From contig JAYJMM010000119.1 in NCBI GenBank assembly GCA_037349105.1, forward strand, positions 4,351,001 through 4,415,000: a stretch of 64,000 nucleotides of DNA. Reading direction: 5' to 3'. Below the pieces are notes generated by a model, which was not told the DNA's origin, did no database searches, and worked only from the letters and a program-made list of their open reading frames with translations. A program made the position numbers and the translations under genes. Source of the DNA: Limnomonas spitsbergensis. Its lineage: Eukaryota; Chlorophyta; Chlorophyceae; Chlamydomonadales. Shown piece after piece: positions 1,216 through 56,789 of the stretch; within the stretch, counting starts at the first letter, position 1; the number at the start of each line of letters is the position of its first letter.

Positions 1216-4200
1216 CTGCAATGGTGGCATGCAGCAGGGCCATGTGTGTGGATTCAGCCAGATGACAATTGGAGATGCCACTGGTGCTCAATAGCGGCAA
1301 GTGCGGAACTGGCATGCATGCCAGTCAGGGCTGTGCAACTCTGCTGCAAGCTAGAAATAAGTAATTACAAACCCTTCCTGGAAAAGTAGCTAAATTTGCC
1401 TTGGAATTACTGTGACTGACAACTCAGGTGCGAAATTCGGCCACCATACGGACTGTAATCGGCATAGCACTAATGCCAGTTTAGATGCTGATTTAGACTG
1501 CACCAGAGCATCCTGGGACATCAATACATGACGGCCACATTCTCACTTCCCAATGCCTTTCCCTGCTCGTACGAGTCCACCCTCGGCAGATCGCCTGAGG
1601 GCCGCCAAATTCTTGACAAGGGCCAAGAGTTTGTGACCTGCCATCAGCCGGTGGCCCAGGCAGCAAGGCTGGCTGCGAATAGGGCAGCCAGGAGGCCAGG
1701 AGGTACCTGAATAGTCCCTTACCTTTGGCTGAGCCAAGGAAAAAACAACACTGATCGCCACTTCCCTCCCGGATTCTCTTGGACCTACCCCGGCAGCATT
1801 CTACATACAAACCCTGGCACAACGTCAGCTCTTTTGTTCGCCAACCTTCAGTATAAATCCTGAACCCTAAACCCTAGACCCCAAACCCACCTGCAGCGCT
1901 AGCTCGCTCGCCGAGATGACCATGAAAAAGTTGTTCCTGGTGATGCCCTCCAGAATGTCCGGCTCGTCCAGCACTTTGCGGCAGGTGACCTGTACCATAA
2001 ATAAGAACAGCAAAAACATGGATTCCAAGTCAAATGTTTCCGTCTTCTTCTGTTATTGCTGCTGCTCCCACGACGTGACTGTTCGTCAAACATTTTGCGG
2101 CAGGTGATCTGCAGAGCTCAATGCCAGCTAAGAATTCCAACAAACTGAGGTCTCATCCAGAGCCAGTAAGATTTGGGATAATGTGGACCCGCCTGACACC
2201 TGTGATGGCCATCCAGCAGCCTGCCAAGTGCGCTTTTGACAGGCTGCTGGACGGCCACCACTGGGCCGATGGGAGCCACACCTTCACCGGTACAGGCAGC
2301 AGGCCTCGGTGCACCAGCCATCCTGGCCGTAGGTTGTGATGCATCTGAACTGTCTCTAAGAGACAGTTCAGCTGGGGCTTTATTTTAGGTTAAACCTTGA
2401 CCCAGACCGAAGGTTGGGGCTTCGGTCTGGGTCAGTGAAGACCCAGACCGAAGGTTGGGGCTTCTAGGTTAAAAGTAAACCTTTAACCTTTAACCTTTAA
2501 CCCCCCAAAGTAGGCTAGGGGGAATTCAGAGATATTAGACCTATACCCTAAATCCTACACGGGAGGCCTTTGGAATGCGCACCTGGTTGAATAGTTGCAT
2601 CATGACGAACGTGTTGAATACCAAGGTGTTGTCGTGGACGTCAGTCGCACCCATCGCTGCCTGCCCACCCGCCAGCAGGCTGAGCAGCACAGCCAGCTGG
2701 AAGCAGGCCTGGCCTGCCACATGCTTGGTCACCAGCGGCGTGATGAGCGGCTGGTCGGCGCGGGTGGGAGGGAGGTCCAGCAGGGAGTCTGTGTAGAGGG
2801 AGGGGCGGTAGGGAGCAGCAGGAGAGGCAGGAGAGTAAGGGATCGAATGAGTGGGATGGTGGAGCAATGCAGCATAGGAGTAGGTCAGGTAAGACTTTCC
2901 GCAGTGCCGCAGTGCCGCAGTGAAAAGCTGGGAAAGCGTCTCCATCACGCGCCTGATATTTACCATACCATTACTCAGCATTTGAAGCATCCGGGGGCTA
3001 CCATAAACCCCGACTGTAGGCAAAGACGAACATATTGATTTGTTCACAGAGCCTGGCCTCAAAGTTAAGGGGTTTCCATTCTTTCACACACCTGTCGGCG
3101 CCTCCGTCGCCAGTGCCAGGCTCGCCAGGCTATCCATGAGCAAGTTAACCCACAGCATCTGGACACTACTGAGCGGGGACTCATGCAGCGTGAGGGCGCC
3201 AACACAGGCGGTCGTCACCGCCACCTGGACAGAAAGGGTTTAAGATTCAGGATTTGAGGTTCAGAATTCAGGATTTAGGTTTAAGCCTTCAGAATAAGTA
3301 ACCCTAAACCCTAATCAGCTGAGCGCCCACACAGGCTTGTCGCCCCCGCCACCTGGACAGCAAGAGTTGAGGGTTTATCCTAGAGCATAATGAGTCCTAA
3401 ACCCTGATCAGCAGAGCGCCCACAAAGGGTTGTCATCATGACCACCAGGACATGCTTTAGGGTTTAAGGGTTCAGGGTTAAGGGTGCCGCGCCCTCACCA
3501 GGTTGGCCGTCAGCTGGAACTGCAGAAACTTGGTGATGGACGAGAATACGTTGCGGCCCCACTTGACCGCGCTGACAATGGATGTGAAGGAATCATCCAT
3601 CAGGAGGATGTCAGAGGCGTCTTTGGCAATGCTGGTGCCGCTGCAGTTGTCGGGGGGGTGGGAGGCGGGCCAGTGAGGGTCAGAGGGGAGATGTCGGTGA
3701 AAGTTGTCCACCAGGAGGATGTCCGAGGCATCTTTGGCAATGCTGGCGCCCCTGCATAGGGACAAGGCAGGCAAGTTAAGGCCACAGGGGAAGGGGGGGG
3801 GGGGGGTAAGTGCAGGTACAGATCAGTGCAGGTCATGCCGCTGCATATGGATGTGTTAGCGTCTCAGGTTAGGGTTTGGCGGCCGGCCTCCCAATTTGTT
3901 AAGTCAAAACAAAAATAAGGGCCGGAGGGGACGAGGCAAGCTATTGAGGGCCAGAGGTGGAAAGGGGGCGGGTCAGTGGAGGTCGTGCTGCTGCATCAGG
4001 GGACAGAGCAGACTAACGAGGGCCAGAGGGGAGAGGGGAGGTCATTGCCACACTGATGGTCCCAAGGCATCATCATGATATCCACGTTGTCTTGAGCAAC
4101 TCGTGCTACTGACGACAGGGCCGGATGTGGAGAAGGTAGGGGCGTGCGCCATGCTGCTAATCTGTCAATGCGTGCGGAAAGCTAGCGCATCCAGTGACAC

Positions 4201-7200
4201 TCTGCAGCATGTGGGAGCCAGAAGGTCAGGAGATGGTACAGGAACAACTATGCGCCCCTTGGGAGGTGTGATTTCAGGGTGAGGTGGACCTCCTATCCAA
4301 GACGACAGAAAAGCACAGTCAAAGTATCCAGCAACAGTGCACACTGCACATGCCTTTGAAGCCTGACGCTGCTGCTTTGTACCAACAACGCAAAACTGCA
4401 TCTCCCAGATGGGCCTCCGTAACATTGAATCCCTGATACAAACCTGCTCTGCCCCTTGACTTGATGAGACAGCGCCTTTCCAATAGCCTCCTTGACAGAG
4501 GACCCCCGTGCGAGTACCCTCATCCGCTTTTGCTGTTCAAGCACCCAACACCCGCCCACCTGTTCTAACACTCATCAACCATCCACCTAATCAAGGGCTC
4601 ATCACCCGCTCACCTGTTCATGGCAAAGCCGACGTCTGCTGCACTCAACGCAGGAGCGTCATTGGTGCCATCACCTGACAGGGGGGGGGGGGGGCAGAGC
4701 AAAGCATGCACCACTGACACTCTTGTGCACATAGCGGAGCAAAGCATGCACCACTCTCAGCTCTACCTGTATATATGGCAAACAAAGCAAAGCAAGCACG
4801 GCTTTATTGAGTCCATAGTAGGTGGGGGGCCGTGTGCGAGACGCTTGAACAGCTATAACAGCAATCCTGAAAGGAGGCAACCAACACGAACACCCATCCT
4901 TGCAAACACAAACGATGTTTTAACTTGGAAGGCCATTCCAACATCAACCGTGTTCCTCTGGCACATTTGTTTTCGTTGTACCTCTGCAGCTTTATACCAC
5001 TGCTGCATGTTAAGGGGAGCTGCCCAACTAGATTTCAGCGTAAGCATCCCACTTTTGAGAAGAGCACCGAGGCGTCCTTGCTTTTCATGCCAAGCTCGTA
5101 GTTATCCATCGGAATCAGGCACTTGCCTAGGCAGGAGACCTGTACGTTGGTGTCTATATGCCTGACCTGCCGGCTCTCGCCTAGACAGGGCAACTGTCTG
5201 TAGGTATTAACATCCCTTAGATCTACAGTATCTTGCCTAGGCAGGGGACCTGTCTTCTGGTATCTACATCTCCTAGATCTACGGGCTATCACGTAAACAG
5301 GGGGCCTGCATGTTGGTGTCCAGATCTGTTAGATCCATAGGTTTTCGTCTAGATGGTTCACCTATCTGCTGGTGTCTAGATCTATAAGATCTACAGGCTC
5401 TCAGGTAAGCAGGGAACCCGTCTGTTCATATTTAAATCTCCTCCATCTACCTGTCATTGCCACGACCTCAGACAGGAGGTAGCTTGCGCCGTCATGCTCT
5501 GCAGGACTCGCATGCAGGGATCCCTGCCGACGACCCTCCTCGCGCAGCTGGGCAATCAGTCAGCAGTGAAGGCAGGGGTGACTGGATATGTATGGTTTGT
5601 CAGGTCTTTCCCCAATACTAAGTTAAAACCTCAAATTTTAGAAAACGCAGGGAGACAGGAGGGGGGGAGTATGGGGGTCAACAAGCAATGCACCGTATTT
5701 GTACCCCTGTCACTAAAACATGCATACCACCATGTAGTGAAGGGCTTGCAAGTGAAGGTACACTTGATCAGGTGCCTCAAATAGTAATCATGATAGAAAC
5801 ATGTGTCAAGGTTGAGAAAAGGGACAGCATGGGCTGCAAAACAGGGGGTGTTGTGCGTGCATAGCTCAGCGCCTGCATTTCCCGTCACCCATCATCTGCA
5901 TGGAGCGCATCAGTGTCCATCCTGCACTATATCACATTGGAGAGCCGCTGGGCGCCGGGAACTCAATCTTCACCAGCCAACGGGCTTTCTTCAAAACTAG
6001 CTTGAAAAAATAGCGTTAAGATAGAAACCTACGGCCGGTAGCGGCAGGGCTTTTTGCGCCAGCCCTTCCCAGCCGTAAGCCACGATGCAGCCACATTATG
6101 GTTGAAGCAACCTAACGTCAACACCTAATCACCCTGATGGTATGAAACATCTCATCCACACTTCCATGCAGCAGGCACACAAAAGGTTAACGTACAAGCA
6201 CAGGATCACAAAATAATGAAACAACATTTTTTTTATCAAGAAAGAATGATACTGGAGTGATACTGCACAACAGACAGAGTCACAGGAGTCATATGGTAAC
6301 ACCCGCACCCCTCCCCATGCACACACCTCCTTAACCCATGCACACGCCTCCCCAACCCATGCACACACCTCCCCAACCCATGCACACACCTCCTTAACCC
6401 ATGCACACGCCTCCCCAACCCATGCACACACCTCCCCAACCCATGCACACACCTCCTTAACCCATGCACACGCCTCCCCAACCCATGCACACACCTCCCC
6501 AACCCATGCACACACCTCCTTAACCCATGCACACGCCTCCCCAACCCATGCACACACCTTCCCAACCCATGCACACACCTCCTTAACCCATGCACACGCC
6601 TCCCCAACCCATGCACACACCTCCCCAACCCATGCACACACCTCCTTAACCCATGCACACGCCTCCCCAACCCATGCACACACCTCCCCAACCCATGCAC
6701 ACACCTCCTTAACCCATGCACACGCCTCCCCAACCCATGCACACACCTCCCCAACCCATGCACACACCTCCTTAACCCATGCACACGCCTCCCCAACCCA
6801 TGCACACACCTCCTCAACCCATGCACACACCTCCTTAACCCATGCACACACCTCCCCATCCCATGCACACACCTCCCCAACTCATGCACACACCTACCCA
6901 ACCCGTGCACACACATCCCCAACCCATGCACACACATCCCCATCCCATGCACATGCATTCCCATCCCATGCACACACCTCCCCAACCCATGCACACGCCT
7001 CCCCAACCCATGCACCCCTCCCCAACCCATGCACACACCTCCCTCCCCATGCACACACCTCCCTCCCCATGCACACACCTCCCCAACCCATGCACACACC
7101 TCCCCAACCCATGCACACACCTCCCCATCCCATGCACACACATCCCCATCCCATGCACACACATCCCCATCCCATGCACACACCTCCCCAACCCATGCAC

Positions 7201-10200
7201 ACGCCTCCCTTCCCATGCAAATGCATCCTTAACCCATGCGCACGCCTCCCTTCCCATGCACACACCTCCCCAACCCATGCACACACCTCCCCAAGCAATG
7301 AACCCCCCCCCATCCCATGCACACACATCCCCATCCCTTGCACACACCTCCCCACCCCATGCACACGCCTCCCCACCCCATGCACACGTCTCCCCGCCCC
7401 ATGCACACGCCTCCCCACCCCATGCACACACCTCCCCAACCCATGCACACGCCTCCCCTCCCCATGCACACACCTCCCTCCTCATGCACCCCCCCCCCAT
7501 CCCATGCACACACCTCCCTCCCCATGCACACACCTCCCCAGCCCATGCACACACCTCCCTCCCCATGCACACCCCCTCCCTTCCCATGCACATGCATCCC
7601 CATCCCATACAGACACCTCACCAGCCCATGCACATGCATCACCATCCCATGCACCTGCTTGAGGGCCATGACCAGCAGGTACTTGTCCTCAGGTAGGCAG
7701 CGTCCCAGCACACGCAGGCGCGGCCAAAGCAGCCTGCCACATTAAACCGAGGGGCGGGCGGCAGAATAAGCGTCGCAGCTCAAAATGGAGGAGAAGCCAA
7801 ATGCAGGATGGAGCTCGGCGTTACGACGACATTGGCTCGCAGCGTCAATGCTCTGCGGGCAACGAAGACCGGCTGAATAGTCCCGCCGGCTATCCTTGCG
7901 TCCCACCGCCGTCACACAACCGCTATACCTGCGGCTTCTTCATGCGCAAGAAAGCAGCTGTGCATCATAGTGCTCAGGGCTCAGGCCTGACGGAAAAGGC
8001 CTCTACAACCAAACCTGATTCTGTCGCAGTCTATCCCGTCGTTGCTTCCGAGTCACCCTTCCCTTCCGCACAGGTATCATTTTCCAGGCCTGGTATCGGC
8101 TCAGGTACAGTTCAGCTACCTCCTAGCCTCCAGCCAGAGCTTCATACGGCTTACGCCTGTGCCTACACGCCTGTCGGGGGCATTGTTTATCTTTTCAGGA
8201 CTTATTTACAATTCAGCTACCTCCTGGCCTACGACCAGAGCCCCTTGTGCGGCCAGCCATACAGCTTAGGCCTGAGTCTGCAGGCCGGTCCAAAAATTAG
8301 CCCCAATCAGGCATTTGACAGGCGCTCAGGCGGCCTACCGAAGATGGGCTTGCAGCTGAAAAAGAAGCACTGGCCATGTGGCCAAGGCATGGCCCCAACT
8401 GGACAGTTCCAATTCGGCAGCCATTGGACAGCCTGCCTTAGAGCTGACATCAATAGCTCCACAAAGACACACACTGTGGCCTCGCACTACAAACTCCATC
8501 TTCAATCAGGAAATGTCAGCCGCCATGCATAGCCAAACTAGCTAGCCTCACTCTTGTTTGATGATAACGGTGCGGCTGTGGCTTCGGCCCCAAACTACGC
8601 TGTTCCCTTTACCCCGCACGCCCCTAGGGGGGGCGTAGTTTTATTTCTTCCTTTCTGTGGCCTCGCACCTGAAAGCGTCCTGGTCGAGTCCGTTGCTGCC
8701 ATGCAGTCCCCCGTTGCTGCCATGCAGTCCCCCGAGACGCACTAAGCTCTTGAATTGAGCCGCCTCCATGACCAGCGGTAAAGAAGAAGCCTCCCCCTCC
8801 AGCAGCAACCCGCCGCTCCAAAGCGCCTGTCCGGCAGCAACAGCAGCGTCTACGTCCGTCGAGGGCGGCAGGATGCCGCACTCCTTGGCGATGCTGGTCG
8901 CAGTGTTGATGTTGTCGCCCGTCAGCATGCGCACCTTGCAGACAATGAGAACGGGATGGGGCAAACGACAATGACGACACTCTTTCAGGCTACCTTAACA
9001 TCTTCCCGCCAGCCATGCTGCTTGGGCCGCCTGCTGCAGGCTGGCTCAAGTTTGATCCCAATTGGGCCCTGGGCAGCCACGGGGCAGCCCCCGGCAAAGG
9101 TGGCCTTGTAGCCGGGGGAAAACTGCCCTTCTCTAAGGAAGAAAGAAAGCTACCGGTATGCCCCGTGGTAGGCGTGAGAGTTAAGGAAACAGCGCAGCCT
9201 GGGCCGATGCCACATCTGCGCCGTTACCGGCCCTCTATAAACCAACCATCCTCCTCCTGAGCCGATGAGTGACCTGCTCAGCTCCACACTATGCCAGCCC
9301 GCATAAAGCCTAACAGTGGGCTGGTTTTGGATAGGGTATACGGTTTAGGACTTGGGGTTTAGGGTGAAGGACTCAGCCTACTCAGCTTACCACGATGCCA
9401 GCCCTGGTTTGAGGGTTTAGTGTTTAGGGTTCAGGGTAAAGGACTCGGCTTAGTCAGCTCACCACGATACCAGCCCTCTGACATTGCTCGATAGCAGCCG
9501 TGACGTCCTCCCTCAACGGATCCTGTGCACGACGGCAAAGTAGGTGGCATTCATAGATGATTGGCTAGCCGATTCGATCCAAAGGTGTCTCATCAAGGCC
9601 TATATACGTGCATTTGATGCACTTGAACACAAAGACAATGCACTAGAAGATCACCCAGGCTGTGTCTGCCAGTCAGCAGGCCACGAGTGTCTCTAAGAGG
9701 CCTATGCACGTGCATATGATGCACTTGATTTACAAAACTGTGCACTTGGATGTAACCCTGGCTGTTTCTACCATCTAGCAGGCCAAGCACAGCTGTGAAG
9801 GCAAGCCGCGGTAGCTTTTCTGGAGACAAGTGACAGCGGCAGGAAACAGGAGCCCCCTTCCTTGTAATCATGGCGTAGGATTTAGGGTTGATGGTTGAGG
9901 GAGCCCCCCTTCCTAGTAATCGTTGTTCAGGGTGCACTGCGTAGGTTTAGGGTTAAGGTATAGAGTTAAGGGGAGCCTGCCCTTCCTTGTAATCAGGGTC
10001 AAGGCATTGACGTGGCCTTGGCCGATGCCTTAATTCTGTAACTCTCATGCCACTGCCCCTCTCTGTGCAGTTTTTTATTCCTTGCACCGGCAAGGCTGCT
10101 CTGCTTTGAATCCCAAAACAACCTGATAAAGGGGCAACCTGGTGGAATGTGATCAATGTATGTGTGTTAGTGCGTACCGGTATGTCAGTGCGCGTTTAAA

Positions 10201-13200
10201 GGTGCGTGTGGGTGCATTTCGTTATAATTGCCGAACCATTAATGCCCCAAGTCCTACCCTCCTGAATTCATAGAACGTGCTCTTGCACGCCCACAGTCGG
10301 CATCCTTCACCCGTTTTTATCATACATGGGTAGGAACAAAGAACATGCTATCAAGGCAGAGGGACAGCAGGGGCGAAAAACAGGGGAAGGCAGCGCCATG
10401 GCTCACATACCACCCCTCCAGCAAGAGGTTTTCCTCCAATTACACCCGTGTCCGGATATGTCAGGTTATCAGCCAGCAACAGGCCTGCTTGCGCGCAACT
10501 CTAGCAGTAGGCTCACCTGCAACCCCACCAGCACGAGGTTGTCCTCTAATTGATGCATCACGGAAGTGTCCGGAGATGTCAGGTTATCAGCCAGCAACAG
10601 GCCTGCTTGCGCGCAACTCTAGCAGTAGGCTCACCTGCAACCCCACCAGCACGAGGTTGTCCTCTAATTGATGCATCACGGAAGTGTCCGGAGATGTCAG
10701 GTTATCAGCCAGCAACAGGCCTGCTTGCGCGCAACTCTAGCAGTAGGCTCACCTGCAACCCCACCAGCACGAGGTTGTCCTCTAATTGATGCATCACGGA
10801 AGTGTCCGGAGATGTCAGGTTATCAGCCAGCAACAGGCCTGCTTGCGCGCAACTCTAGCAGTAGGCTCACCTGCAACCCCACCAGCACGAGGTTGTCCTC
10901 TAATTGATGCATCACGGAAGTGTCCGGAGATGTCAGGTTATCAGCCAGCAACAGGCCTGCTTGCACACAACCCTAGCAGTAGGCTCACCTGCAGCTTCGG
11001 CCCAGGCTGCGCTGTTTCCTGAACTCTCACACACCCCGCGGGGCGTAGCTTTCTTTCTCTCACCTGCAACCCCACCAGCGCCACCAGCACAAGGTTGTCC
11101 TCCAATTCATCCATCACGGACGTGTCCGGAGATGACAGCCTGTCAGCCAGAGACAGTCCCGCCTGCAACAGCCCAAGCATGACAGGGTTAGTTGGCGCAT
11201 AACCACTGACAAAAAGCAACGCAAATAAAATGGCGCGTGTGTATTCCATTGAAGCATAGCTAGTTTACCACAGAGACAAAGCAACGTAAATATAGTGACA
11301 CTCGTATAACGTGTATCCGATTGCACTGGACCCAATATACAGTATGTCAGTATCCGATCGTACTAAATAAGTGACACTTGGGTATCCGATTGACCCGCTG
11401 ACAGGCCTGCATCTATTCGGGGGGGGTCTTTACACAAAGTCAAAGTCCGATGATTAATCCACAATGGCAATGCAATGAAAGAGTGTTTGTGTGTGTGTGT
11501 GTGTGCGTGGTGGGGATGGCGTGTTGAAGGGGGGCGGGGGCAGTATAGCCATGCTGCATAAATTTGAACTCCACATGTTCTTTTAGCCTGTGATGTGCCT
11601 TGTGTGCAGGAGTTCCAACGGACCGGCATTTTAAATTTATAATTTGGCAACCCCTCCCATGAGGCTGGGTGCTCATCTCACAGTAACCTCCTATAGGGCA
11701 ATCCGTCATCACATTTACTTCAGCGCGCTCCGGCTGAAATGAAGCAGCAGCATCAGGGCCTATGATTGGCCTATGATTGGCCTATGATTGAGATGGCCCG
11801 TGATTGGCCTGTAATGGCCTCAAGGGCCGGGTGTGGCAACTGACAACCACGGGCCGCAGGCTGGTCAAGGTTGCGTCCCTATTGATAATAAATAAATGAA
11901 GCATATGCCCTAATACATGGATAAAGGAGGCCATCTGTTCGGTAGTAGCACTTGGTAGGCCGCCATCGCCCCATCTACCCAGTGCTGGGCGCTGGGCGGT
12001 CCCCCAAAGGTGGTAGTAAGGCACACTACAAAAATAAAAATAAACCACTCAGGCACCTTCAGACCCTGATCTTAAGCCATATCAATACGTTTGCTTGGAA
12101 CTTAACATGTGACGCTGGCAGCCCACCCTTTCAAAACCTGAAAAGGCAAACACAAAAAGCAGCCCGTGTGCGCATACGGTCCTCGTCTGCAGTTGAGAAT
12201 ATCAATACCCGGTATGCATTCCCTGAGCACCTCCTTGTCCGCACCCCAGCTCACCTCGTCGGTCTTTTCGCTGCCCACATCCCGGTAGGCCAGGGCGAGC
12301 GTGCGCAGGCCTTCCCAGCCACCAGATCTAGATCCAGATCTATCTGAAGGGGAAGCCGCCAGCAGCCGATACTTCTCATCGTCGCCGAGGGGCACCAAGT
12401 GGCCGTCGGTGCCCAGCTGTGTGGAAGATGGGCACGAATGCCAGATGAGTCGAATAAAGCAGTCAAGCTGTTTAAATGTGTGTTCAAGCCACCTACCGTA
12501 CTGTAGGTGTCCAAAGTTAATATAAAATTGTTCATCGGCCTCATTTGCCAGGTTGCATGCCACGCCATCAAATTATCCCGAAATTGTTCACATGAATGTT
12601 GGTAGAAAGTGTGCCCAACCCATTCAGCAACATAGTTAACCTCCACCTGAGCTGCACGCCCCTGCAAATATGGGGACCACACCAGTACAGCTGCCCGGCC
12701 CTGTCAATCCTGCACCTCATCAGGCATCACATCAGGGGAGCTGCCTGACCCTGTGAATCCGGCACCTCATCAAGGACCACACCAGACGCACACCAGGGAC
12801 CAGAGCATGGGCGGTATCTAACCCTGCATATGCAAGTCATAGATGGTAACACACTTCCTGTTCATCATAACCGACGAGCTGCTCAGTCCAAACACTGGCC
12901 TTAACAGCCCACCCAGCTGCCCCCTCCCTGTCTGCCAACGACCTGCCACCCTTCCCTCTCACCCACCCGTCTGCCCTCCACTGACCTGCCAACCCGCCCC
13001 TCTCACCCACCCGTCTGCCATCCACTGACCTGCAAACCCGCCCCTCTCACCCACCCGTCTGCCATCCACTGACCTGCCAACCCGCCCCTCTCACCCACCC
13101 GTCTGCCATCCACTGACCTGCCAACCCGCTCCTCTCACCCACCCGTCTGCCATCCACCGACCTGCCACCACCCCTCTCATCACCCTGTCTGCCCTCCACT

Positions 13201-16200
13201 GACCTGCCACCCGCCCCTCTCATCACCCTGTCTGCCCTCCACTGACCTGCCACCCGCCCCTCTCATCACCCTGTCTGCCCTCCACTGACCTGCCACCCGC
13301 CCCTCTCATCACCCTATCTGCCCTCCACTGACCTGCCACCCGCCCCTCTCATCACCCCCGGTCTGCCCTCCACCGACCTGCCACCCGTCCCTCTCATCCC
13401 CCCGCCTGCCCTCCACTGATCTGCCACCCGCCCCTCTCACCCCACTCTGCCGTCCACCGACCTGCCATCCGCCCCTCTCATCACCCTGTCTGCCGTCCAC
13501 TGACCTGCCACCTGCCCCTCTCATCACCCTGTCTGCCCTCCACAGACCTGCCACCCGTTCCTCTCACCCCCTGTCTGCCCTCCACCGACCTGCCACCCGC
13601 CCCTCTCACCCCCTGTCTGCCCTCCACCGACCTGCCACTTGCACCTCTCACCCCTGTCTGCCCTCCACTGACCTGCCACCCGCCCCTCTCACCCCTCTGT
13701 CTGCCTTCCACTGACCTGCCACCCGCCCCTCTCACCCCCCTGTCTGCCCTCCACTGACCTGCCACCCGCCCCTCTCATCCTCCTGTCTGCCCTCCACCAA
13801 CCTGCCACCCGCCCCTCTCACCCCCCCCCCTTTAACCTCCACCAACCTGCCACTTGCACCTCTGAAGGAGGATGTCAGCAGCGCCCTTGACGTACAGTCT
13901 GAGGGTGCTGGCAGGGGAAGAGTCGGTCCCGAGCGTCCTCCCGAGATGGGACTGGAGAGGGGGGCTGTCAGTGTTGCCGTCACCACCAATGCGGCCAGCC
14001 CAATCGTTGCATGGAATTTCACCTCCTCCGTTTTGCCCGCCGCTCCTGCTGCTGTGAGCATCCTCCAATGAGACCAGGGTGCTCATTCGCTTGCGCTCAG
14101 AAGTGAAGGGAAGCACCTGCAATTGAACAACACCCGTTAGGCAAGAGCAGGCTTAAGGCATCATGTTACATACGAAGAATGTACGTCGCAGTCCTTAAGT
14201 TCGGCTTCATGGAACATACGACGAATATATGTCGCAGTCCTTAAGTTCGGCTCATGGAACATAAGATAAACATATGCTTAGTCCTCCAGTTCAGCTGCAA
14301 TAGGAGTTCATGGAAGCATCAGCAATTAAACATACTTCATCATGCAAGTTAAAACAAACAGGCTCTACGTAGAAAATGTGCAAAAGAAATGAAAGAGCCC
14401 CGCTTAAATGCAACAAGAGGAGAGCTATACGTCCGTGCGAGGTGTAGAGTGTGCGCCCAAACTGGGGCGATGGACCCAATGCTGCCCATTCAATTTGACA
14501 CCATTTGAGATTCGGCCAATCCCCAGAAGATGAGGCAAACACCAGGCCAGCCAGTCTCCAGAGGGCCCGTCTCTGAGCGTTCAACAGACCAGTCCAGCTG
14601 GCAAACATAAACAATACAATTGAGTAGATAACCTAACCAGTTATACATATTTTTGTGTGCCCATCACCACATCATCACTTGCCTGTATTGCCTGGGCCCT
14701 CCTGCCCATCAGGTCCATCCTCGCCCCCCCTGCCTCAGGGCCCACGAGCTGCTCAGCCATCTCCAGGAGCGCACACTCGGTGCGGTTGCCTGACCTCTCA
14801 TGGCACAGGCCGGTGTCAGGGCTGGTGACCCAACGTGAGCTGGCTGTGGAGTTGAGGATCACATTGTTGACCAGCAGCTCCTGAAAGGGATTGCAGGGGG
14901 AAGGGGGCAAGGGGTGGAGGGGGGTGCAAGGGGTGGAGCGGGTGCAACAGAGGAAGGGGGGGCATGGGGTGTGGGTAGGAATGGGAGCCAATGGGTCTGG
15001 TCAAGGCAGCTTGGGCTAAACCTGGATGTCGGGCAATACCATAACATGAGAAAGAGAGCAGCTTCATAACCTCCTATTGGGACATGCATCTGCACCTACT
15101 AAGAGATTCAGGATATATTTTCAGTCAGTGCTGTGCCAATTATGGTCCTTACGGTGGCTCAATTGAGGAGCTGACTTTCAGTCACCGTAATTTCAAGGCA
15201 AATGCAGCTATATTTTCCAGTCAGGGACCGTAAGTACAGACACAATTTCTGAATGACGGCGCAATTGCACATCACAGTTTCCAGTCCACCTCGGTCAAGA
15301 CTCCTCTACGACTCTACCCGTCTGGTGCTGCATGCAGGATTCATCAGGATGACAAGAGCACGAGCAGCAGAAGTAAAACATGACACCAAGGATAAACGAG
15401 AGAAGTCAGAAGTCCACAAGGCAGCTCTCAAAACGGAGGACACGCCTCACACTACAGCGTGGCGCTGTTCGTCACGCCCAAATCAGCGAGTGTGACCGAC
15501 CCTTGATGAAATTAAAAACAAATCCCTTCAGGGAAAGCACATCATACATCAACATTTCAGAAACAGGGACAAGGTTTCTCTCTGGGTGATTAAGCTACAT
15601 GTCAGCTACACTCCGGCCGCTGGCCGAAGGTCCAATTTGTGGCCAGACTTGCTGCTTTGGTCACCAGTTGCAGTCCGGTCCAGGCTTGGTCCAAACTGGG
15701 CCTCTGGTAGCCGCTGGGTGGCCTGCCGAAGCTGCACTTGTAACCAAAAGAAAACACTGAACAGGACGCGGTCAGCAAGCCGGGCTCACCCTAGCGACGT
15801 TCGACAGTCTCTGATTGTCATCGCTGCTGCTGAGGGGTTTGAGGGCCAACACAGACCTGGCGCCCACCCGCAGCACCTCCATCGCAGATGCTCCTGGAGC
15901 CTCCCCTTCTGACCCTTGGCCACGGGCGTCCCCCACGCTGCGCACATCCTGCGGCAATCCAAAAGTCCGAGACGTCCTGGTCTCGGTCGTTTTGAGCGGC
16001 AATGAAATGTTTCCGCGTGTGCTTGGGGATGGTTTTGGGAGAGGTGGTGGGGGTAATGATGACCGGCCCTCTGGTAACAGCTGTTGCCTTTTGGTGCCGC
16101 CATGCCTGACACGGAACGTTTGCCCACTGGTCCACAGGCGAACCACTGCCATGTCGTTCTGGGTCAACGTGCCGGTCTTGTCCCTTCGATGATAAGGGGG

Positions 16201-19200
16201 GGGGGCGAAGATAAAACAGGGGGCGTTGGGATTCGTAGGCCCGTCTGTTCATGCACGACCAATGCCTGCTCCTGAGGGGAAGGGCTATGCGCAGAGTTTC
16301 TATTTTGCGACTCAGCTAAAGGTCAGCTACACTCCGGCCTCCAGCCGGAGGCCCCATTTGTGACCAGCCCTGCAGCTTGGGCCACCAGCCGTATGCTGGT
16401 CCAGGTTTGGTCCCAATTGGGCCTTTGGCGGCAGCAGGTCTGCCTGCCAAAGGTGACCTCGTAGCCGAAAAAGAAACGCTGGCTATGCGTTCAAGGCTGT
16501 GTTCTGTCAGACTTGAGTGTCAAGGAAATCAAATGTTTCCTGGCCAAAGGAGCTTATTGTGCCCACCACATTTCATGCTCTTGAAACAAATGACAGCTGT
16601 GCTCTACAACCCTTCCGTCCACTGCTTTCCAATCAATATAATCACATGCAGACTGCAGCAGCACATAAGTAGCACATACCATGATCCATGGGTAGTAGAA
16701 ATAATACTGGTTACGTGAACTCCTAATAATAGACAACACGTTAAGTTAACACCCGAACTCGAGCCACTATCAAAGTGAGCTCCCCACCACGCATGATCTC
16801 CCACCTTTTACTTCATTGGGATTCCCACACTCTAACCACCACTCACGTGCAGATTGTGGTCGCACACGCCATGGTCTCACACGCATTCAGGTGCCTGCGT
16901 ACCATGGGAAGCGGCATGAACAGCGTTGAACTCAGATATTGAGATGTGACAAATTGACAACGGCACTTCAGGTGCTGTGATGGGCGACTGACGGCCGGGA
17001 CTGTTGGCCACACACATCACTCCACTCACACTCCCTTCTCTGCAGAATCGAGCAGACGTCGGCCTTTTGACCGTGCCGCCAATATCTATTTTTTTTCAGT
17101 CGATATTTTACTGCGTTGTGGTGTAACACACCGTGTTACATTACACTTCAGTCTCTTCTTAAGAGTCAGAACCCAAGGCTGTGCTGCATGCCATTAGGAG
17201 CAGCGAGGACAGCTTTGGACTCCAGCATGACTACGGCATCGCAGGTACCATACCCGGGAGGCAAGAGACCAGATGCTGCATGCCAGCTTTTATATACCAT
17301 ATATTAAATTTCATTTTATTATATTCAATTCATTTATTATGTATATTAACTTTTCATTAAATTACATTATATATAATTATTTCATTATATATATTATATT
17401 TCATTAAATTAATTTATTACATGCTATATTTCATGTCATATATGATATCTCATTTTATTAAATATATTTTAGATTATATTTTGAATTGAACACACGAAGT
17501 GCTAGAAACGTTAAATTTCAAATACAAGATACCAGGAAGATTAAATTTTAAATACCACCAGCCTCAAAAATAGGGCTGGGACCCAGAAGCTGAGTGGCAG
17601 GTTTGGGATGACAGGACCAGCTAAACCCTCAACCCTAATTTAGCGCTTGGGGAACTATTAAACTACCATCACCTTCTATCAAGCCTACATATGAGAATGA
17701 AATCCATGGTGTGGCGGAACATCAGCATAATCTGTATTCCGGCAGGCAGGTACATTGTCCAGTGAAGGCATACACCATCCACATGGGGTTCCCACATGGG
17801 CGCATGGGCGTGTGCCTGGGCTGCCCTTCCAACTGCCACATGTGCGCATGGGCGCGCATGGGCTGCCATTCCAGCTGCCACATGTGCGCATGGGCGCGCC
17901 TGGGCTGCCCTTCCAACTGCCACATGTGCGCATGGGCGCGCATGGGCTGCCATTCCAGCTGCCACATGTGCGCATGGGCGCGCATGGGCTGCCATTCCAA
18001 CTGCCACATGTGCGCATGGGCGCGCATGGGCTGCCCTTCCAGCTGCCACATGTGCGCATGGGCGCGCATGGGCTGCCCTTCCAACTGCCACATGTGCGCA
18101 TGAGCGTGCCTGGGCTGCCCTTCCAACTGCCACATGTGCGCATGTGCGTGCCTGGGCTGTCCTTCAAACTGCCACATGTGCGCATGGGTGTGCCTGGGCT
18201 GCCCTTCCAACTGCCACATGTGCGCATGGGCGTGCTTGGGCTGCCCTTCCATCGGCCACATGTGCGCATGTGCGTGCCTGGGCTGTCCTTCAAACTGCCA
18301 CATGTGCGCATGGGTGTGCCTGGGCTGCCCTTCCAACTGCCACATGTGCGCATGGGCGTGCTTGGGCTGCCCTTCCATCGGCCACATGTGCGCATGGGCG
18401 TGCATGGGCTGCCCTTCCAACTGCCACATGTGCGCATGGGCGTGCCTGGGCTGCCCTTCCAACTGCCACATGTGCGCATGTGCGTGCTTGGGCTGCCCTT
18501 CCAACTGCCATATGTGTGCATGGGCGCGCCTGGGCTGCCCTTCCAACTGCCACATGTGTGCATGGGTATGTGCCTGGGCTGTCTTTCCAACTGCCACATG
18601 TGCGCATGGGCGTGCCTGGGCTGCCCTTCCAACTGCCACATGTGCGCATGGGCGTGTGCCTGGGCTGCCCTTCCAACTGCCACATGTGCGCATGGGTGTG
18701 CCTGGGCTGCCCTTCGAACTGCCACATGTGCGCATGGGCGTGTGCCTGGGCTGCCCTTCCAACTGCCACATGTGCGCATGGGCGTGCCTGGACTGCCCTT
18801 CCAACTGCCACATGTGCGCATGGGCGTGCCTGGGCTGCCCTTCCAACTGCCACATGTGAGCATGGGCGTGTGCCTGGGCTGCCCTTCCAACTGCCAAATG
18901 TGCTTATGGGCGTGCCTGGGCTGCCCTTCCAAATGCCACATGTGAGCATGGGCGTGTGCCTGGGCTGTCTTTCCAACTGCCACAGTTTCATGTCCACCCT
19001 ATCTGCCATAATTGGATTTCTGCTCACCAGGCATCCGCTGCGTCCAGTTTACCTGCTGAGCGTTTTGGTTGGCCGGTCTAACATTCCGGTCCCCAAAACC
19101 CTGAACGCCCGACCCCTCCTGATTATGATGCTGTCGGCCAGCATGTCCCCTGGGTGTTAGGTTGAGTTTCGACTGAAATGTATCTAAGATTACGGTTCAG

Positions 19201-22200
19201 GATGGGTCTGATCCCTAAATCCTAATTTCAACTCCCTGATCCCTAAATGTAGGGATCCCTAAATCCTAAATCTCAACTCCCTATAAGGGAGTTGAGATTG
19301 AAGATTTATGAACCTGAACACCGCAACCCTTTAACCCACCTGACCAGGTTGTTGTCGGCCAGCATGCGCTGCACGCTGAATGCCAGGGCGAGTGTGACGG
19401 CCAGCGGCAGCCCCTCGGGCACCGCCACCACCAGGATCGTCACACTGGTGATGAGGTCATCCAGGTAATGCTGGAGGGAGCAAGCAGGGGGGAGGAGAGG
19501 ACAGGGGCACGCATTCAACAACCACCGCATGTAAGCTGTTGAGAGGTTTCACTGCAGGCCGCAGGGGATTCACTGTGTACCTGCAGTGTACCTTCAGTGT
19601 ACCTTCAGTGTACCTGCAGTGTACCTGCAGTGTACCTACAGTGTACCTGCAGTGTACCTTCAGTGTACCTGCAGTGTACCTACAGTGTATCTGCAGTGCA
19701 CCTGTAGTGTACCTTCAGTGTACCTGCAGTGCACCTGCAGCTAAACTCGCTTGATGGCGGATGTGGGTAGTAATGGCCTGCCAACCAGCCAGGCAGCAGG
19801 TTCCTGCTGTCTGGCTGGTTGGCAGGCCATTACTTCTCATTTCAACACGCTTCAGCTGCGCATCAGCAAAACCTCGGCTTACAGCTGAAGGGGGCCTGGT
19901 GCAGCCAGCCCTGCTATTTGGGCCACCAGCCGTAGGCCAGTCATGGTTTGGTCCCATTGGTCCAGAGGTGGCTGCTGGGCTGCTCCCCGAATTGGGTCTG
20001 GTACACACCATAATAAACACGGGTGGACCATGGACAAGGCCCAGCTGCCCTGCCAGCCACCCTCAATTCAGTCCGTACCTGCCATCTTATACCCTGTCGG
20101 CAGCAGCGCTATTTACCCTCAACCCTGGACCCTTAGTCCAGACCGTGCCTGTCATCAGACATCCCGTCCACACCAGTGGTGTTTTAGTTTCACACCAGGC
20201 CAGCTTGAAACCCTTAAACCTTGGACCCATGCTGTCCAGTCCTACACACCAGTGGTGTTTTAGTTAACACCAGACCAGCCTAGAGGGTGCTGCTGGGCCG
20301 CTCCCAGTGGGCTGATTGAACCAAAATCTAGACCAGAAAGCATGCAGAAGGCCGCCCAAACATAAGGTTTGCGCCTTCAGACATTCAAAAGCAGCCAATG
20401 ACGCAGCTAGGTTTGAGCTGAATCAGATCAGAGAGGCGTGAAAGGCGAGCTCCCGCGTGCATCAAAACTCTTTAGCTACAGGTTGGGGTGTAAAGACGTA
20501 CCTAGTGTAGGGTTTAGGCTTCACCCTTCACACAAACCTGAAGGAACGCACCTGCAACTTGGCGCAAGAAACCTAAACAAAACAAAACAAAGGCTCCTCT
20601 TGCCGCCCCCCCCACATACACAAAAACAAACAATCACGCACCTGCACGTGGTCAATGTCCACCAGAGAGGCCTGAAGGTTGATCTCCTGCAGTGTGTATT
20701 CGCCCCAGTTGAGGGCCAGCACGCCAGCCGCCGCCGCCATGCCCGCATAGCCTATCTGCCGCGCCAACCCATCGAGCTTCTCCGTCAGGATGGTGCTCTT
20801 GCCCATAGACTCCTCTTGTCTCCCCTCTTGCTGCTGCCCCTCCTGCTCCTGCCCCTCCATCTTCCCCGGCCGCTCCTCTGGTCTGGACTTCATTTGCAGC
20901 CCAGTCTGCCCCTTCGACCTCTGTCGGCCCTGCTGCTTCTTCGCCTGGGGTTCATTCCCTCCCATTCCCGCTGCCTGCCCTTCCACTTGCAACACTTGTT
21001 CCTGCTGCTGCTCATCCACCCCTTGCGTCTGCCCCGCCACCATGCCGCTGATCTTTCCCTGCTGCGAATATATGCCCACGGCCACTACCAGCATGCGACC
21101 GTAACCTTCCAGCACCTTGGATCCAGACAGAAGAATACACGACCGGGACTGATAGGGGGAGAGGGGGAGGGGGAGAGGAAAAGTAATTCATACGTGGACG
21201 TAACTTGCCAGCATCTTGGAGCTATACAACAGAATACATGGCCGGGACTGAAAGGGGAAGAGGGGGGGGGGGGTACTTTTAGGGTACTCAGGGGCGTCGC
21301 ATGGACAGGCAGGGGGCGGAAAGTGGCAAGGTGAGTCACTCAGGTGGAAGCGCGCCATATAGACAAGAAAGATGATGAAACAAGCCTGCTAATGCAAACA
21401 TGGGCTAGCAAATAGATGCATGACAAGTGACAGGACTGCATGATGAGTGACTCTAACTGTGCAGGGTTTATGAAATAGGTTATTAGGTAGAACAAGGACC
21501 CTTCACCCTAACAAGAGGATAACTTGACACTCTGAGGGAGTTTCATCTGAACCCACAAAATGCTGACTGCTGGTTCCATCATCCAACATGCCCCTCACCT
21601 TCAGTCCTTGGGTCGTCATAGGCATCCAGCATGCCCCTCACCTCCAGTCCTTGGGTCGTCATAGGCATCCAGCATACCCCTCACCTCCAGTCCTTGGGTC
21701 GTCATAGGCATCCAGCATACCCCTCACCTTCAGTCCTTGGGTCGTCATAGGCATCCAGCATGCCCCTCACCTCCAGTCCTTGGGTCGTCATAGGCATCCA
21801 GCATACCCCTCACCTCCAGTCCTTGGGTCGTCATAGGCATCCAGCATACCCCTCACCTCCAGTCCTTGGGTCGTCATAGGCATCCAGCATACCCCTCACC
21901 TCCAGTCCTTGGGTCGTCATAGGCATCCAGCATGCCCCTCACCTTCAGTCCTTGGGTCGTCATAGGCATCCAGCATACCCCTCACCTCCAGTCCTTGGGT
22001 CGTCATAGGCATCCAGCATACCCCTCACCTCCAGTCCTTGGGTCGTCATAGGCATCCAGCATACCCCTCACCTTCAGTCCTTGGGTCGTCATAGGCATCC
22101 AGCATACCCCTCACCTTCAGTCCTTGGGTCGTCATAGGCATCCAGCATACCCCTCACCTCCAGTCTTTGGGTCGTCATAGGCATCCAGCATGCCCCTCAC

Positions 22201-25200
22201 CTTCAGTCCTTGGGTCGTCATAGGCATCCAGCATACCCCTCACCTCCAGTCCTTGGGTCGTCATAGGCATCCAGCATGCCCCTCACCTTCAGTCCTTGGG
22301 TCGTCATAGGCATCCAGCATACCCCTCACCTCCAGTCCTTGGGTCGTCATAGGCATCCAGCATGCCCCTCACCTTCAGTCCTTGGGTCGTCATAGGCATC
22401 CAGCATACCCCTCACCTCCAGTCCTTGGGTCGTCATAGGCATCCAGCATACCCCTCACCTCCAGTCCTTGGGTCGTCATAGGCATCCAGCATACCCCTCA
22501 CCTCCAGTCCTTGGGTCGTCATAGGCATCCAGCATACCCCTCACCTCCAGTCCTTGGGTCGTCATAGGCATCCAGCATACCCCTCACCTCCAGTCCTTGG
22601 GTCGTCATAGGCATCCAGCATGCCCCTCACCTTCAGTCCTTGGGTCGTCATAGGCATCCAGCATACCCCTCACCTCCAGTCCTTGGGTCGTCATAGGCAT
22701 CCAACATACCCCTCACCTCCAGTCCTTGGGTCGTCATAGGCATCCAGCATGCCCCTCACCTTCAGTCCTTGGGTTGTCATAGGCATCCAGCATACCCCTC
22801 ACCTCCAGTCCTTGGGTCGTCATAGGCATCCAACATACCCCCCACCTTCAGTCCTTGGGTCGTCATAGGCATCCAGCATACCTCTCACCTTCAGTCCTTG
22901 GGTCGTCATAGGCATCCAGCATACCCCTCACCTCCAGTCTTTGGGTCGTGATAGGCATCCAGCATACTCCTCAACTCCAGTCCTTGGGTCGTCATAGGTA
23001 TCCAGCATACCCCTCACCTCCAGTCCTTGGAATATCATATATTCATATGCACACATTCATCATGCCCCTCACCTTGGAGATGTCATCAGCCTCTCCGGTC
23101 ATGTGGCTCTCATCCACCCTGGACAGACGTATCATGGTTTGGGAATGGAGATGAAGGTCGAGAGCTTATCAAATAAAGTCTGGACTTCATATGAGGCTAT
23201 GTGGGTGCAAGCCATGCTCGAAAATGGCAACTCGAGGAGCAGACCCTGATAGGCAAGTGCAACAAAACATCAGACAGGCAAAGACAGAAAACTGACAAGA
23301 CGGGTCTGGCCAATTTTCCAAGCGCCCTCAACTTCAGCCTGCGATTGCATACCCCTCCCTCAGCTGGAATGATGTCCCCCCTCTCCCTGACCACCCCAAC
23401 ATGGCACACGAGCAGGCCGCATCCACTCACTTTAGCCTGCCGTCGTACACCACTCCGTCCGCCGGGATGATGTCCCCTGTCTCCACCACCACCACGTCTC
23501 CCACCAGCAGGTCGTACACACTCAGCTGCGACTCCACCCCGTCACGCAGGACGCGGATCTGGGAAGCAAGGGCAGGATGGGCAAGGGCAGGATGGATTGC
23601 TCATTAGGATGGCTTTAAGAATAAAATACATACCAGCGTCATATGCGCTGAACCCCCCCCCCCCCATCCAGGGTCAGCTGGGACACATTTTCACCACAGG
23701 AGATCAAATCCCTTTCATCCCTTGCCATTCATCCATTGTGAGCTCAAATGTCTGATGCACATCCGCAGCTCCCCTACACTTCACAAACTAACAACCCTCC
23801 TAGAACCAGCTGATCCTCCTCAACGATCCTCCTACTTGCCCCTGTGTATCTCTTGTGTGGCTCGGCTTCACTGCAGCTAACTTTCACCTACCTCCTGCCC
23901 CCATTTTCCAGCTTGACCCCGTGTCTGTACGCCGATGAAGCCTTGGCCCCATTCCTACCTTGAGCAGTCGAGGGGCGTCCCGTAGAAATCGGACTGGCGG
24001 GCAAGAAAGGAAATGCTGACCTGGACATCATCCTTGGCTGCCTTGATCTGCCTGAACATATCCTCTATGCACCCCATCCCTACAACACGCAGACGCCCCT
24101 CACCTCCACCTCCTCCTCAGCGGCAACCCCTAACTCTGCACAAAGCTTACGCACGTCCGCAGCTCACCCAGTCTCCCATCACCGCATGAAGCATCCACCC
24201 CACCTGCACATCATCCTTGACTGCGTTCAGCTGCCTGAACTTGGCTTCCTTGAAATAGTTGGTGGTTGCGCCCACACAAACCACAACCAAGACAGTCGCC
24301 AGGATGGCGGCTCCCTCAATCCATTCAGGCGGTCCGCTGGAGACGCCGGCAGCCAAAGGTGCCGTCGCCTCCACCGCTGCTGCCGTCGCCACTGCTGCCG
24401 CCGCTGTCGCTGCGGTGCTGGCTTCTTCGCCTAGCTGCTCGGGTATGCTGCCAACTGGGGGCACCGGAGCGGTGTGGGCGAAGCCGAGGTCAAGGGCCAG
24501 TGACAACGCGCCAGCCACAGAGAGCACGATGACCGTAGGGTCCTGCGACGCAGAGGGTGAAGCAAACAAGGCTCAGCAGGAAGGCAAAAATGCTCCAGAA
24601 CCAGGAAAATGCTCAGGAAGAAAGGCAAGAAAGACCTCCCATAATGAAAAACAGTGCTTCTGGACACTTCCTGGTTTGCCCCCGAGAAGGAAGTGCTGCC
24701 TGATGGTCGGTATCATGGGCTTGGTAGTAGATCAGGTATGATGCAAAAGCTGCTGATGCTTTAGCTACTGCGGTTCCCTGCGACGCAGCTCAGGACCAAT
24801 GCCGAGTTCTGCAAGCACTGATGCACCGCCAGTCAAGCTACTGTGCACTGCCAGGTAGGCCACTGAACACCGCCTGGCAGAAATTTTGACATTAGGAGGC
24901 AGTGGATGAGGTAACGCCAGGGATGTCATTGGGCTCCGCCAAACAGGCCCTTGAGCACCGCCAGGCAGGCCCTTGAGCACCACCAGGGCGTCAGGCTGGC
25001 CACTGGGAACTGCAAATGGCCCATGCAAATCTGCAGATCAGTAGGAGAACTGCTTCTAGATAATGGATCTGCTCACATTGAATGCGTCCAGTACCAGCTC
25101 CCAGAATGAGACAGCCCGCTGTGCGGGCAGGCGGTTCTGCCCATAGAGGACGGCACGTTGCGCCATGTGGTCTTGGCCCGCGGTGAGCGTTCCTGTTGTG

Positions 25201-25727: not shown

Positions 25728-26172
25728 TGGAAAATGTGCTGTACGCTACACTGAATTTGCTGTCGATGACCTGTTGAGGACGGATATGGAAGAAAAGCTT
25801 CCGATGGGCTGTCCGTTTGGTTGGTGACGTGTCCCGTACATCAGGCGATGACTGGGCAGAATTTCTTCTCCGCTCGTATGGAGTTCCGACCAACTTAGCA
25901 AGTATGGCCATCAGCTGGCCTGCACGAAAGTATGAGCCCAGCGGTGAGGGTTGCTTGATTCAACCCATGATGTCTCATTCAGATGCTGTTAAGTCCCAAC
26001 TTCAACACATTTTTTCTTTCCTCCTTGCATGCGTTGATAGTCCAGCCCTCAGGGACGATGGGTTTCTTCCCAATCAGACATCCAGGCTGGTACGGCGAGC
26101 TTGTTTTCGGCAGAGCCCCCCCGGGCGGCCGAAGGTCGCGGGGGCGAAGCCCCCAGAGTCACCCCGTATCCG

Positions 26173-26591
26173 TCAGTCAGTCAGTCAGTCAGTCAGTCAG
26201 TCAGTCAGTCAGTCAGTCAGTCAGTCAGTCAGTCAGTCAGTCAGTCAGTCAGTCAGTCAGTCAGTCAGTCAGTCAGTCAGTCAGTCAGTCAGTCAGTCAG
26301 TCAGTCAGTCAGTCAGTCAGTCAGTCAGTCAGTCAGTCAGTCAGTCAGTCAGTCAGTCAGTCAGTCAGTCAGTCAGTCAGTCAGTCAGTCAGTCAGTCAG
26401 TCAGTCAGTCAGTCAGTCAGTCAGTCAGTCAGTCAGTCAGTCAGTCAGTCAGTCAGTCAGTCAGTCAGTCAGTCAGTCAGTCAGTCAGTCAGTCAGTCAG
26501 TCAGTCAGTCAGTCAGTCAGTCAGTCAGTCAGTCAGTCAGTCAGTCAGTCAGTCAGTCAGTCAGTCAGTCAGTCAGTCAGTCAGTCAGTCA

Positions 26592-26684
<93 letters not shown>
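26173..26684. repeat. (TCAG)105 followed by (TCTG)23
   Basis: TCAG repeats run without interruption from 26173 to 26592 (105 copies). They switch to TCTG from 26593 to 26684 (23 copies) and end with one TCCG. The three Ser/Gln or Ser/Val/Cys/Leu open frames are artefacts. Confidence 0.98.
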
Positions 26685-26690
<6 letters not shown>

Positions 26691-26905
26691 AGCCCGATGT
26701 TTCTGGAACGTCCCGGAAACTGTATGCGCTACAGCGCAAATCAGCCGGCTGTATTTATTAAGGTTATTCCTGTAAGACCTCAAAGGCCGAGGTGCAGAAA
26801 TGAAAAAGAAAGAAAAGAGAACGCCGATGCGGCGTGGATTTTGGGAAGTACAGGTTGACGAGACGCCCAAGCCCCGGTCTGTATACCCTTAAAGGGAGAA
26901 AGGGG

Positions 26906-56700: not shown

Positions 56701-56789
56701 CCATGTGATTATTTGACCCTTGTGCCCCATGTGTTTATTTGACCCTTGTGCCCCATGTGCTTATTTGACCCTTGTGCCCCATGTGTTTA
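41786..56789. repeat. 26-bp satellite, block 1 (about 15 kb)
   Basis: About 570 copies of a 26-bp unit, GTTTATTTGACCCTTGTGCC plus CCATGT, with common variants (GAGTGTTTATTT giving a 30-bp unit, TTTATTTATTT, AACCC for GACCC, TCTCATG). The short open frames of about 60-68 codons on both strands are artefacts of the repeat. No gene was found within it. Confidence 0.98.
44201..56690. repeat. Higher-order repeats within the satellite (about 1.88, 4.00 and 4.16 kb)
   Basis: Segments with identical variant patterns recur at fixed offsets. 44201-44840 matches 46080-46719 (+1879), then about 50242 (+4162) and 54244 (+4002). 47801 matches 51803 (+4002) and 55965 (+4162). 48344 matches 52346 and 56508. 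49136 matches 53138. The rare ACCCTTACAGTGCCCC variant marks 47727, 51729 and 55891. An earlier copy at 43096 matches 49136 (+6040). Confidence 0.88.

Follow-up and report, generated by a model that had tools for sequence, protein, structure and literature searches.

Intron growth is often attributed to transposons. A 2002 study by Canestro is reportedly the one cited for the 'mirages' of amphioxus. Mirages, as the available parts of the sources describe them, are minisatellite-like tandem duplications of exon–intron boundaries, found in the amphioxus Adh3 and globin genes (PMC3087553) and also in the lancelet TnC and PGBD5 genes (PMC3902484). In passages drawn from a survey of Chlamydomonas reinhardtii and Volvox carteri, tandem repeat density is highest in introns and rises towards the intron ends (PMC3887541). 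The excerpts drawn on also describe a human IFI6 (6-16) minisatellite that supplies multiple splice donors (Turri 1995, via PMC4526556), and tandem duplication that can turn coding sequence into intron, in a potato case by crossing an intron–exon boundary (PMC3443670, PMC2891723). Here we describe copies of splice borders within the introns of a predicted Ca2+-ATPase gene in a stretch of 64,000 nt (the window; C119:4351001-4415000, within a 260-Mb genome of 124 contigs), and compare them with these systems. From the sequence we consider it highly probable that tandem duplication across splice borders, with the exon-proximal site kept in use, lengthens introns in this genome.

Border copies in a Ca2+-ATPase gene

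The gene model is as follows.

1891..25367, minus strand: plasma-membrane-type Ca2+-ATPase gene, 21 modelled exons

The product carries PF00122, PF00689, PF00690, PF13246 and PF00702 and is predicted to be a Ca2+-transporting P-type ATPase of the plasma-membrane type. Its closest proteins, among the best 120 of 4829 matches, are from Chlamydomonas eustigma and Chlamydomonas sp. UWO 241, and judged by these matches the host is probably a green alga near the Chlamydomonadales. The first ATG is assumed as the start and further C-terminal exons lie outside the model; its introns total 19,721 nt, as against 3,756 nt of modelled exons. The gene borders were checked by spliced protein-to-genome alignment, using a purpose-written aligner and three algal proteins, at least one of which recovered 19 of the 20 donors and 19 of the 20 acceptors; none of the three recovered donor 15 or acceptor 16. 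Exon 21 starts at 1989, the resembling stretch at 2108 being a copy and not an exon start. Splice-site use was read throughout from protein continuity and alignment, and array copy numbers depend on the assembly.

The border copies and arrays of this gene are listed below; donors and acceptors are hereafter abbreviated D and A, with the number of their exon.

24019..24057, minus strand: exon 2 end with GT, copied 183 nt downstream within intron 2 (score 53, against a shuffled mean of 17.6)
23333..23395, minus strand: final 60 nt of exon 3, copied into intron 3 (47/63 columns identical; border score 29)
21580..23030, minus strand: 43-bp array, 33.7 copies, starting 42 nt past donor 4; units carry AG/GTGAGG, with 3 nt of exon matched
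21208..21272, minus strand: duplicated polypyrimidine tract with AG and the beginning of exon 5, lying 99 nt upstream within intron 4 (score 75)
19114..19145, minus strand: end of exon 6 with the donor region, copied within intron 6, GT having become GA (score 34)
17792..18984, minus strand: 42-bp array, 28 copies, in mid-intron 6, away from the borders
12940..13827, minus strand: 43-bp array, 20.7 copies, starting 20 nt past donor 10
10448..10993, minus strand: 118-bp array, 4.6 copies, in intron 12, holding almost the whole of exon 12 and its donor
9361..9405, minus strand: tandem copy of exon 13 end, donor and intron start (intron part p 0.003)
6314..7654, minus strand: 21-bp G-rich array, 64 copies, from donor 15, on the intron side only
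5175..5282, minus strand: 56-bp repeat close to donor 16, a weak copy of the border that falls below threshold (score 24)
4533..4620, minus strand: 27-bp repeat, 3.3 copies, over donor 17, including 6–7 nt of exon
3712..3756, minus strand: acceptor 18 with the beginning of exon 18, copied 111 nt upstream within intron 17 (score 70)
3323..3368, minus strand: acceptor 19 with the beginning of exon 19, copied within intron 18 (score 54; p 0.003 for the intron part)
2083..2111, minus strand: copy of acceptor 21 and exon 21 start in intron 20 (score 38)

Each border, as a query of 40 nt of exon plus 30 nt of intron, was aligned to the remainder of its own intron, with 100 dinucleotide shuffles each. 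Donors D2, D3, D4, D6, D10, D12, D13, D15 and D17 gave p = 0.01 with scores of 29–60, and acceptors A5, A18, A19 and A21 gave p = 0.01 with scores of 38–75. The initial annotation had listed ten donor copies and four acceptor copies; all four acceptors and nine of the ten donors hold, D16 being weak (score 24, p 0.01). Two of these donors nevertheless do not represent exon copies, since the exon part of the matched stretch is 3 nt at D4 and 0 nt at D15, where the arrays begin at or near the donor. D14, which was absent from that list, scored 28 (p = 0.01) through a match of 14 intron bases only, and A10 (score 27, p 0.02) and A2 (score 24, p 0.04) were borderline and left uncounted. With exon-only queries, p was 0.02 or less at seven of the 20 donors (D2, D3, D5, D6, D10, D12, D13) and at four of the 20 acceptors. 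At D5 the match stops 21 nt before the border, and p is only 0.05 when the border is included.

Several of the units can be followed in more detail. In the D10 array, the final 17 nt of exon 10 and the donor are present in the best-matching unit, and there are 16 site-spanning copies. Exon 12 (99 nt) has been copied almost wholly into the downstream intron, its copies lacking 9 nt of the exon; the idea that these copies carry stop codons was dropped after they were read. A second, more decayed copy of the exon 13 end is seen by eye near 9273–9302. The intronic part of the unit is duplicated as well at D13 and A19, and weakly at D17 (p 0.02) and A5 (p 0.03).

Side, distance and array placement in seven genes

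The test was extended to six further modelled genes, namely four paralogues (C104b, C109, C122, C34) together with NOP58 and PheRS alpha, which belong to other families, giving 7 genes, five of them of one family, with 83 introns and 166 borders. C104a was excluded as a near-duplicate of C104b, as were introns 2, 5 and 10 of the 13 in C34, whose borders differ between references, and the last PheRS alpha intron. A copy was called at a score of at least 28 with p of at most 0.01. Copies in the border's own intron were found at 43 of 166 borders (26/83 donors and 17/83 acceptors), whereas the intron across the exon gave matches at 2 of 152 (0/76 donors, 2/76 acceptors) and inverted border matches numbered 1/166. 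By score alone, the 43/166 of the own intron compares with 5/2080 in other introns of the same gene and 44/11,532 in introns of other genes, paralogues included. The alignment of near against far and shuffled introns, in this gene and in others, was the check that the initial annotation had proposed, with equal frequencies in unrelated introns as the outcome that would speak against it, and the near excess persists when the window gene is left out (29/126 near, 0/114 far). Copy-bearing borders per gene number 14/40 in the window gene, 12/20 in C34, 8/28 in C122, 4/26 in C104b, 2/26 in C109, 2/16 in NOP58 and 1/10 in PheRS alpha. The fixed polarity that was claimed for the copies follows from tandem geometry and a conserved reading frame, and is not a finding additional to them.

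The distance of the copied exon from its border was profiled with overlapping exon windows of 36 nt, each assigned to the nearest border. On the donor side, matches to the near intron fell from 24/266 at 0–20 nt to 11/226 at 20–40 nt, 2/151 at 40–60 nt and 0/321 beyond; on the acceptor side the same bins gave 34/304, 11/189, 0/141 and 0/343, so that none of the 664 windows more than 60 nt from a border matched. The far intron was matched by none of the 873 donor-side windows. These figures bear on the idea that dispersed local copying, by template switching or as repair filler, drops exon pieces into nearby introns. Such copying would account for D3, D6 and A21, where the intron part of the unit is dissimilar, and for some border matches that run no further than the splice site or barely beyond it or, as at D5, end short of it. 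However, tandem duplication predicts that the copied exon adjoins the border and dispersed copying predicts any exon piece, so the profile fits tandem duplication, and the empty bins beyond 60 nt largely refute the dispersed alternative. Matches across the exon are rare, and exon halves would be expected to stay alignable for longer under selection; D3, D6 and A21 may simply be older events, in which the exon half was selected whilst the intron halves drifted. We regard dispersed copying as improbable.

Local duplication is not confined to the borders. In introns of at least 200 nt, local direct repeats were present in 22–51% of intron windows, by bins measured from the donor, and in 15–43% measured from the acceptor, with inverted repeats in 0.8%. 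In the introns of the window gene they occurred in 302/803 real windows and 4/803 shuffled ones, with 0/832 in Escherichia coli. Ten stretches outside the ATPase genes, in which other genes may lie, had a repeat coverage of 4% to 66%, and the trait is therefore genomic. One stretch, L024-L025 (C119:4415001-4435000), had a local direct repeat in 551/832 windows, the highest of the stretches tested. The statement in the initial annotation that introns are built from copies of their borders is overstated in this respect: the copies are real, but local tandem duplications fill the introns at all distances, and those crossing a border are the part that is visible against exons. A strong hotspot at the borders was also considered, and is not upheld by the coverage of 36-nt windows in introns of at least 250 nt. 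Over donors 21/78 windows matched, with 15–19/78 in the next 100 nt and 8–14 of 64–78 deeper in the intron; over acceptors the values were 10–12/78, with 9–15/78 within 100 nt and 5–10 of 64–78 deeper.

Arrays at the two kinds of border differ in composition. On the sense strand, donor arrays are rich in G (mean skew +0.41, 13/14 positive) and acceptor arrays rich in C (mean skew −0.56, 12/12 negative), with the 32 arrays elsewhere neutral on average. The shared G-richness of donor arrays, and the number of introns affected, could point to a mobile element or a dispersed minisatellite family that inserts at splice sites, as introners do. Introners, though, are recognised by similar sequence at many unrelated positions, and in a search of the 260-Mb genome, where the counts are lower bounds, four of the five arrays searched (D4, D10, D12 and mid-intron 6) matched their own locus only. 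The fifth, the G-rich 21-bp unit of D15, has only distant matches among the matches listed (69–75% identity), in arrays on C70, C74 and a few more contigs. As the copies also match their own exon, an inserting family is a most improbable source. Two further arrays lie elsewhere in the window, one of a 26-bp unit with about 566 copies over 15 kb (41787-56789), which recurs at 62116-64000, and one of GTCA repeated about 130 times with 99% matches (26172-26692).

Paralogues, intron age and the proposed mechanism

The near-duplicates C104a and C104b are recent paralogues, about 15 kb apart and 98.6% identical over 8,538 aligned bases. Nine of the ten introns compared differ by 0–7 nt in length. 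Intron 7 measures 1076 nt in C104a and 1210 nt in C104b, a difference of 134 nt or about two units. A repeat array, of period 64 in C104b, makes up nearly all of this intron; its units contain a polypyrimidine tract, TTGCAG and the start of exon 8, and in C104b it has 18 site-spanning copies. All five gaps of at least 62 nt between the two genes (62–132 nt) lie within this acceptor-border array, their exact placement inside it being arbitrary. The length of a border array is thus unstable between these two paralogues, which are not alleles. Between the two genes there is also a 17-bp-spaced repeat array, at about 22.8–24.6 kb of the examined span, with many shifted self-matches.

C104b, C109 and C122 share 13 intron positions; C34, with 8 stops in its joined exons, was left out of this alignment. 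At 9 of the 11 copy-bearing border positions in the three genes, the copy is present in one paralogue only; intron 9 has a donor copy in all three and an acceptor copy in two. Since the intron positions are shared and the copies specific to a paralogue, most copies there are younger than the introns. This bears on whether the introns were themselves born by tandem duplication of an exon segment containing AGGT, the copies being birth marks and not signs of growth. Intron gain through tandem genomic duplication has been described, and the window gene shares just 1 of its 20 intron positions with the three aligned paralogues. (That position is intron 9 of the window gene, 14117-14682, which has GC–AG borders.) A birth-mark origin is nevertheless unlikely, above all in the three paralogues, given the paralogue-specific copies at common positions and the many copies that extend to the intron side of a splice site already present. 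In addition, the 766-nt intron found only in C122, inside exon 8 and absent from C109, C104a and C104b, has no flank copies above threshold within it.

Another possibility is that the copies have been retained because they are useful, whether as splicing enhancers, as decoy sites or as alternative exons. In site-spanning copies the splice letters are retained at 0.91 (G) and 0.86 (T) for donors and 0.89 (A) and 0.83 (G) for acceptors, means over 21 donors and 18 acceptors in which the requirement for aligned sites itself favours retention; the dinucleotides are kept about as well as their flanks. The exon 12 copies, read by eye, keep an open frame. They have, however, lost the in-register acceptor AG (also by eye) as well as the 9 nt noted above, most copy-bearing border positions differ among the three paralogues, and unit number varies between the near-identical C104a and C104b. 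Retention for function accordingly seems to us a poor explanation.

The mechanism that we favour is as follows. Short tandem duplications, with units of about 20–200 bp and arising at some replication or recombination step, would be frequent in the non-coding DNA of this alga. One that crosses a splice border would give the order exon–border–border–intron, and the protein would survive only when splicing takes the copy joined to the coding exon. The second exon end and donor, or the first acceptor and exon start, would then become intron, and the extra copies would drift or, through slippage or unequal exchange, expand into minisatellites. The outcome would be a longer intron with an unchanged exon. 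The initial annotation had suggested the essentials of this, from the splice-spanning duplication and retained exon-proximal site to the seeding of minisatellites, and the near and far counts, the distance profile and the C104a–C104b comparison support it. A duplication within coding sequence is consistent with the same process.

8690..8734, minus strand: tandem duplication of 21 bp within exon 14, in frame and close to the donor

A number of observations weigh against this mechanism. The sites taken as used come from protein alignment, so their use in RNA is presumed. A few matches lie on the wrong side, where the initial annotation had reported none: the start of exon 12, through the near-complete copying of that exon (score 63), the start of exon 13 (60 nt), which matches the downstream intron (score 25, p 0.01), and weakly the end of exon 8, which matches the preceding intron (score 23, p 0.02). 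On the acceptor side 6/899 exon windows match the far intron. A duplicated intronic half is unclear at D2 (p 0.06) and A18 (p 0.11) and was not detected at D3, D6 or A21, and a complete tandem unit is thus demonstrated for some events only. The two genes of other families together also have copies on the near side only (3/26 near, 0/22 far), although the low count slightly reduces confidence. A weak exon-only test on four paralogues (score of at least 24, p of at most 0.01), which took in both C104a and C104b, gave 5/100 near and 1/100 far, the far match coming from a mis-modelled C122 exon. Finally, among arrays of period 9 or more, 14/58 start near donors (7.0 expected under random placement, p 0.004) and 13/58 end near acceptors (6.9 expected, p 0.012), with 4/17 at each kind of border in the window gene alone (p 0.08); a simple neutral model does not predict this mild excess of array edges at borders.

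A broader version would make border-crossing duplication a main way in which introns lengthen throughout the gene set, still under way and close to neutral, with intact decoy donors or acceptors tolerated by the dozen beside the true site since the exon-proximal site is chosen, and with G-rich donor flanks and pyrimidine-rich acceptor flanks preferentially seeding arrays. We offer this tentatively, and think it somewhat more apt to fail than to hold. Growth of the kind proposed would leave its own receipt, in that exon sequence of known origin lies in the adjacent intron, where both its direction and the size of the unit can be read. Should other genes be as rich in copies as these 7, one could measure genome-wide how often border duplications arise, how old they are and what they cost under selection. 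The dozens of tandem donors and acceptors are also natural tests of how the spliceosome chooses among near-identical sites.

Comparison with mirages and other described systems

The initial annotation knew of no description of such copies at this density in one gene. The kind has been described, in amphioxus as mirages and, as repeats near junctions, in Chlamydomonas and Volvox; in titles and the beginnings of abstracts, with most subscription journals outside the scope of the search, we found no report of border-spanning units in any alga. In the survey of C. reinhardtii and V. carteri the repeats at intron ends are like those seen here, and the passages drawn on do not mention copies of exons or splice sites in the units (PMC3887541). 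IFI6 resembles the alga in having a minisatellite over a donor, with units that contain donor sequence; according to the portion of the source used, its downstream units serve as donors (PMC4526556). Intron gain by tandem duplication, as far as the source passages go, makes new introns, whereas in the alga existing introns grow (PMC3443670, PMC2891723).

The closest likeness is to mirages. In the alga, border-spanning units occur at 43/166 borders, with the full unit clear in some, both boundaries are affected, many copies keep AG and GT, and array length is unstable. In the mirage descriptions the units likewise span the splice border at both donors and acceptors; in amphioxus they measure tens of bp to about 160 bp, often keep the splice signals and vary in number, and intron gain has been suggested. 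Mirages differ in that they come from a chordate and few genes, with splicing checked by RT-PCR (reverse transcription polymerase chain reaction), whereas the algal copies are spread over 7 genes and are described from genomic DNA, with controls of side, distance and whole genome. Their density in a green alga suggests that such copies could recur wherever tandem duplication is frequent. The algal copies are mirages in the amphioxus sense, unusually dense, and what is new is the lineage, the density and the controls.

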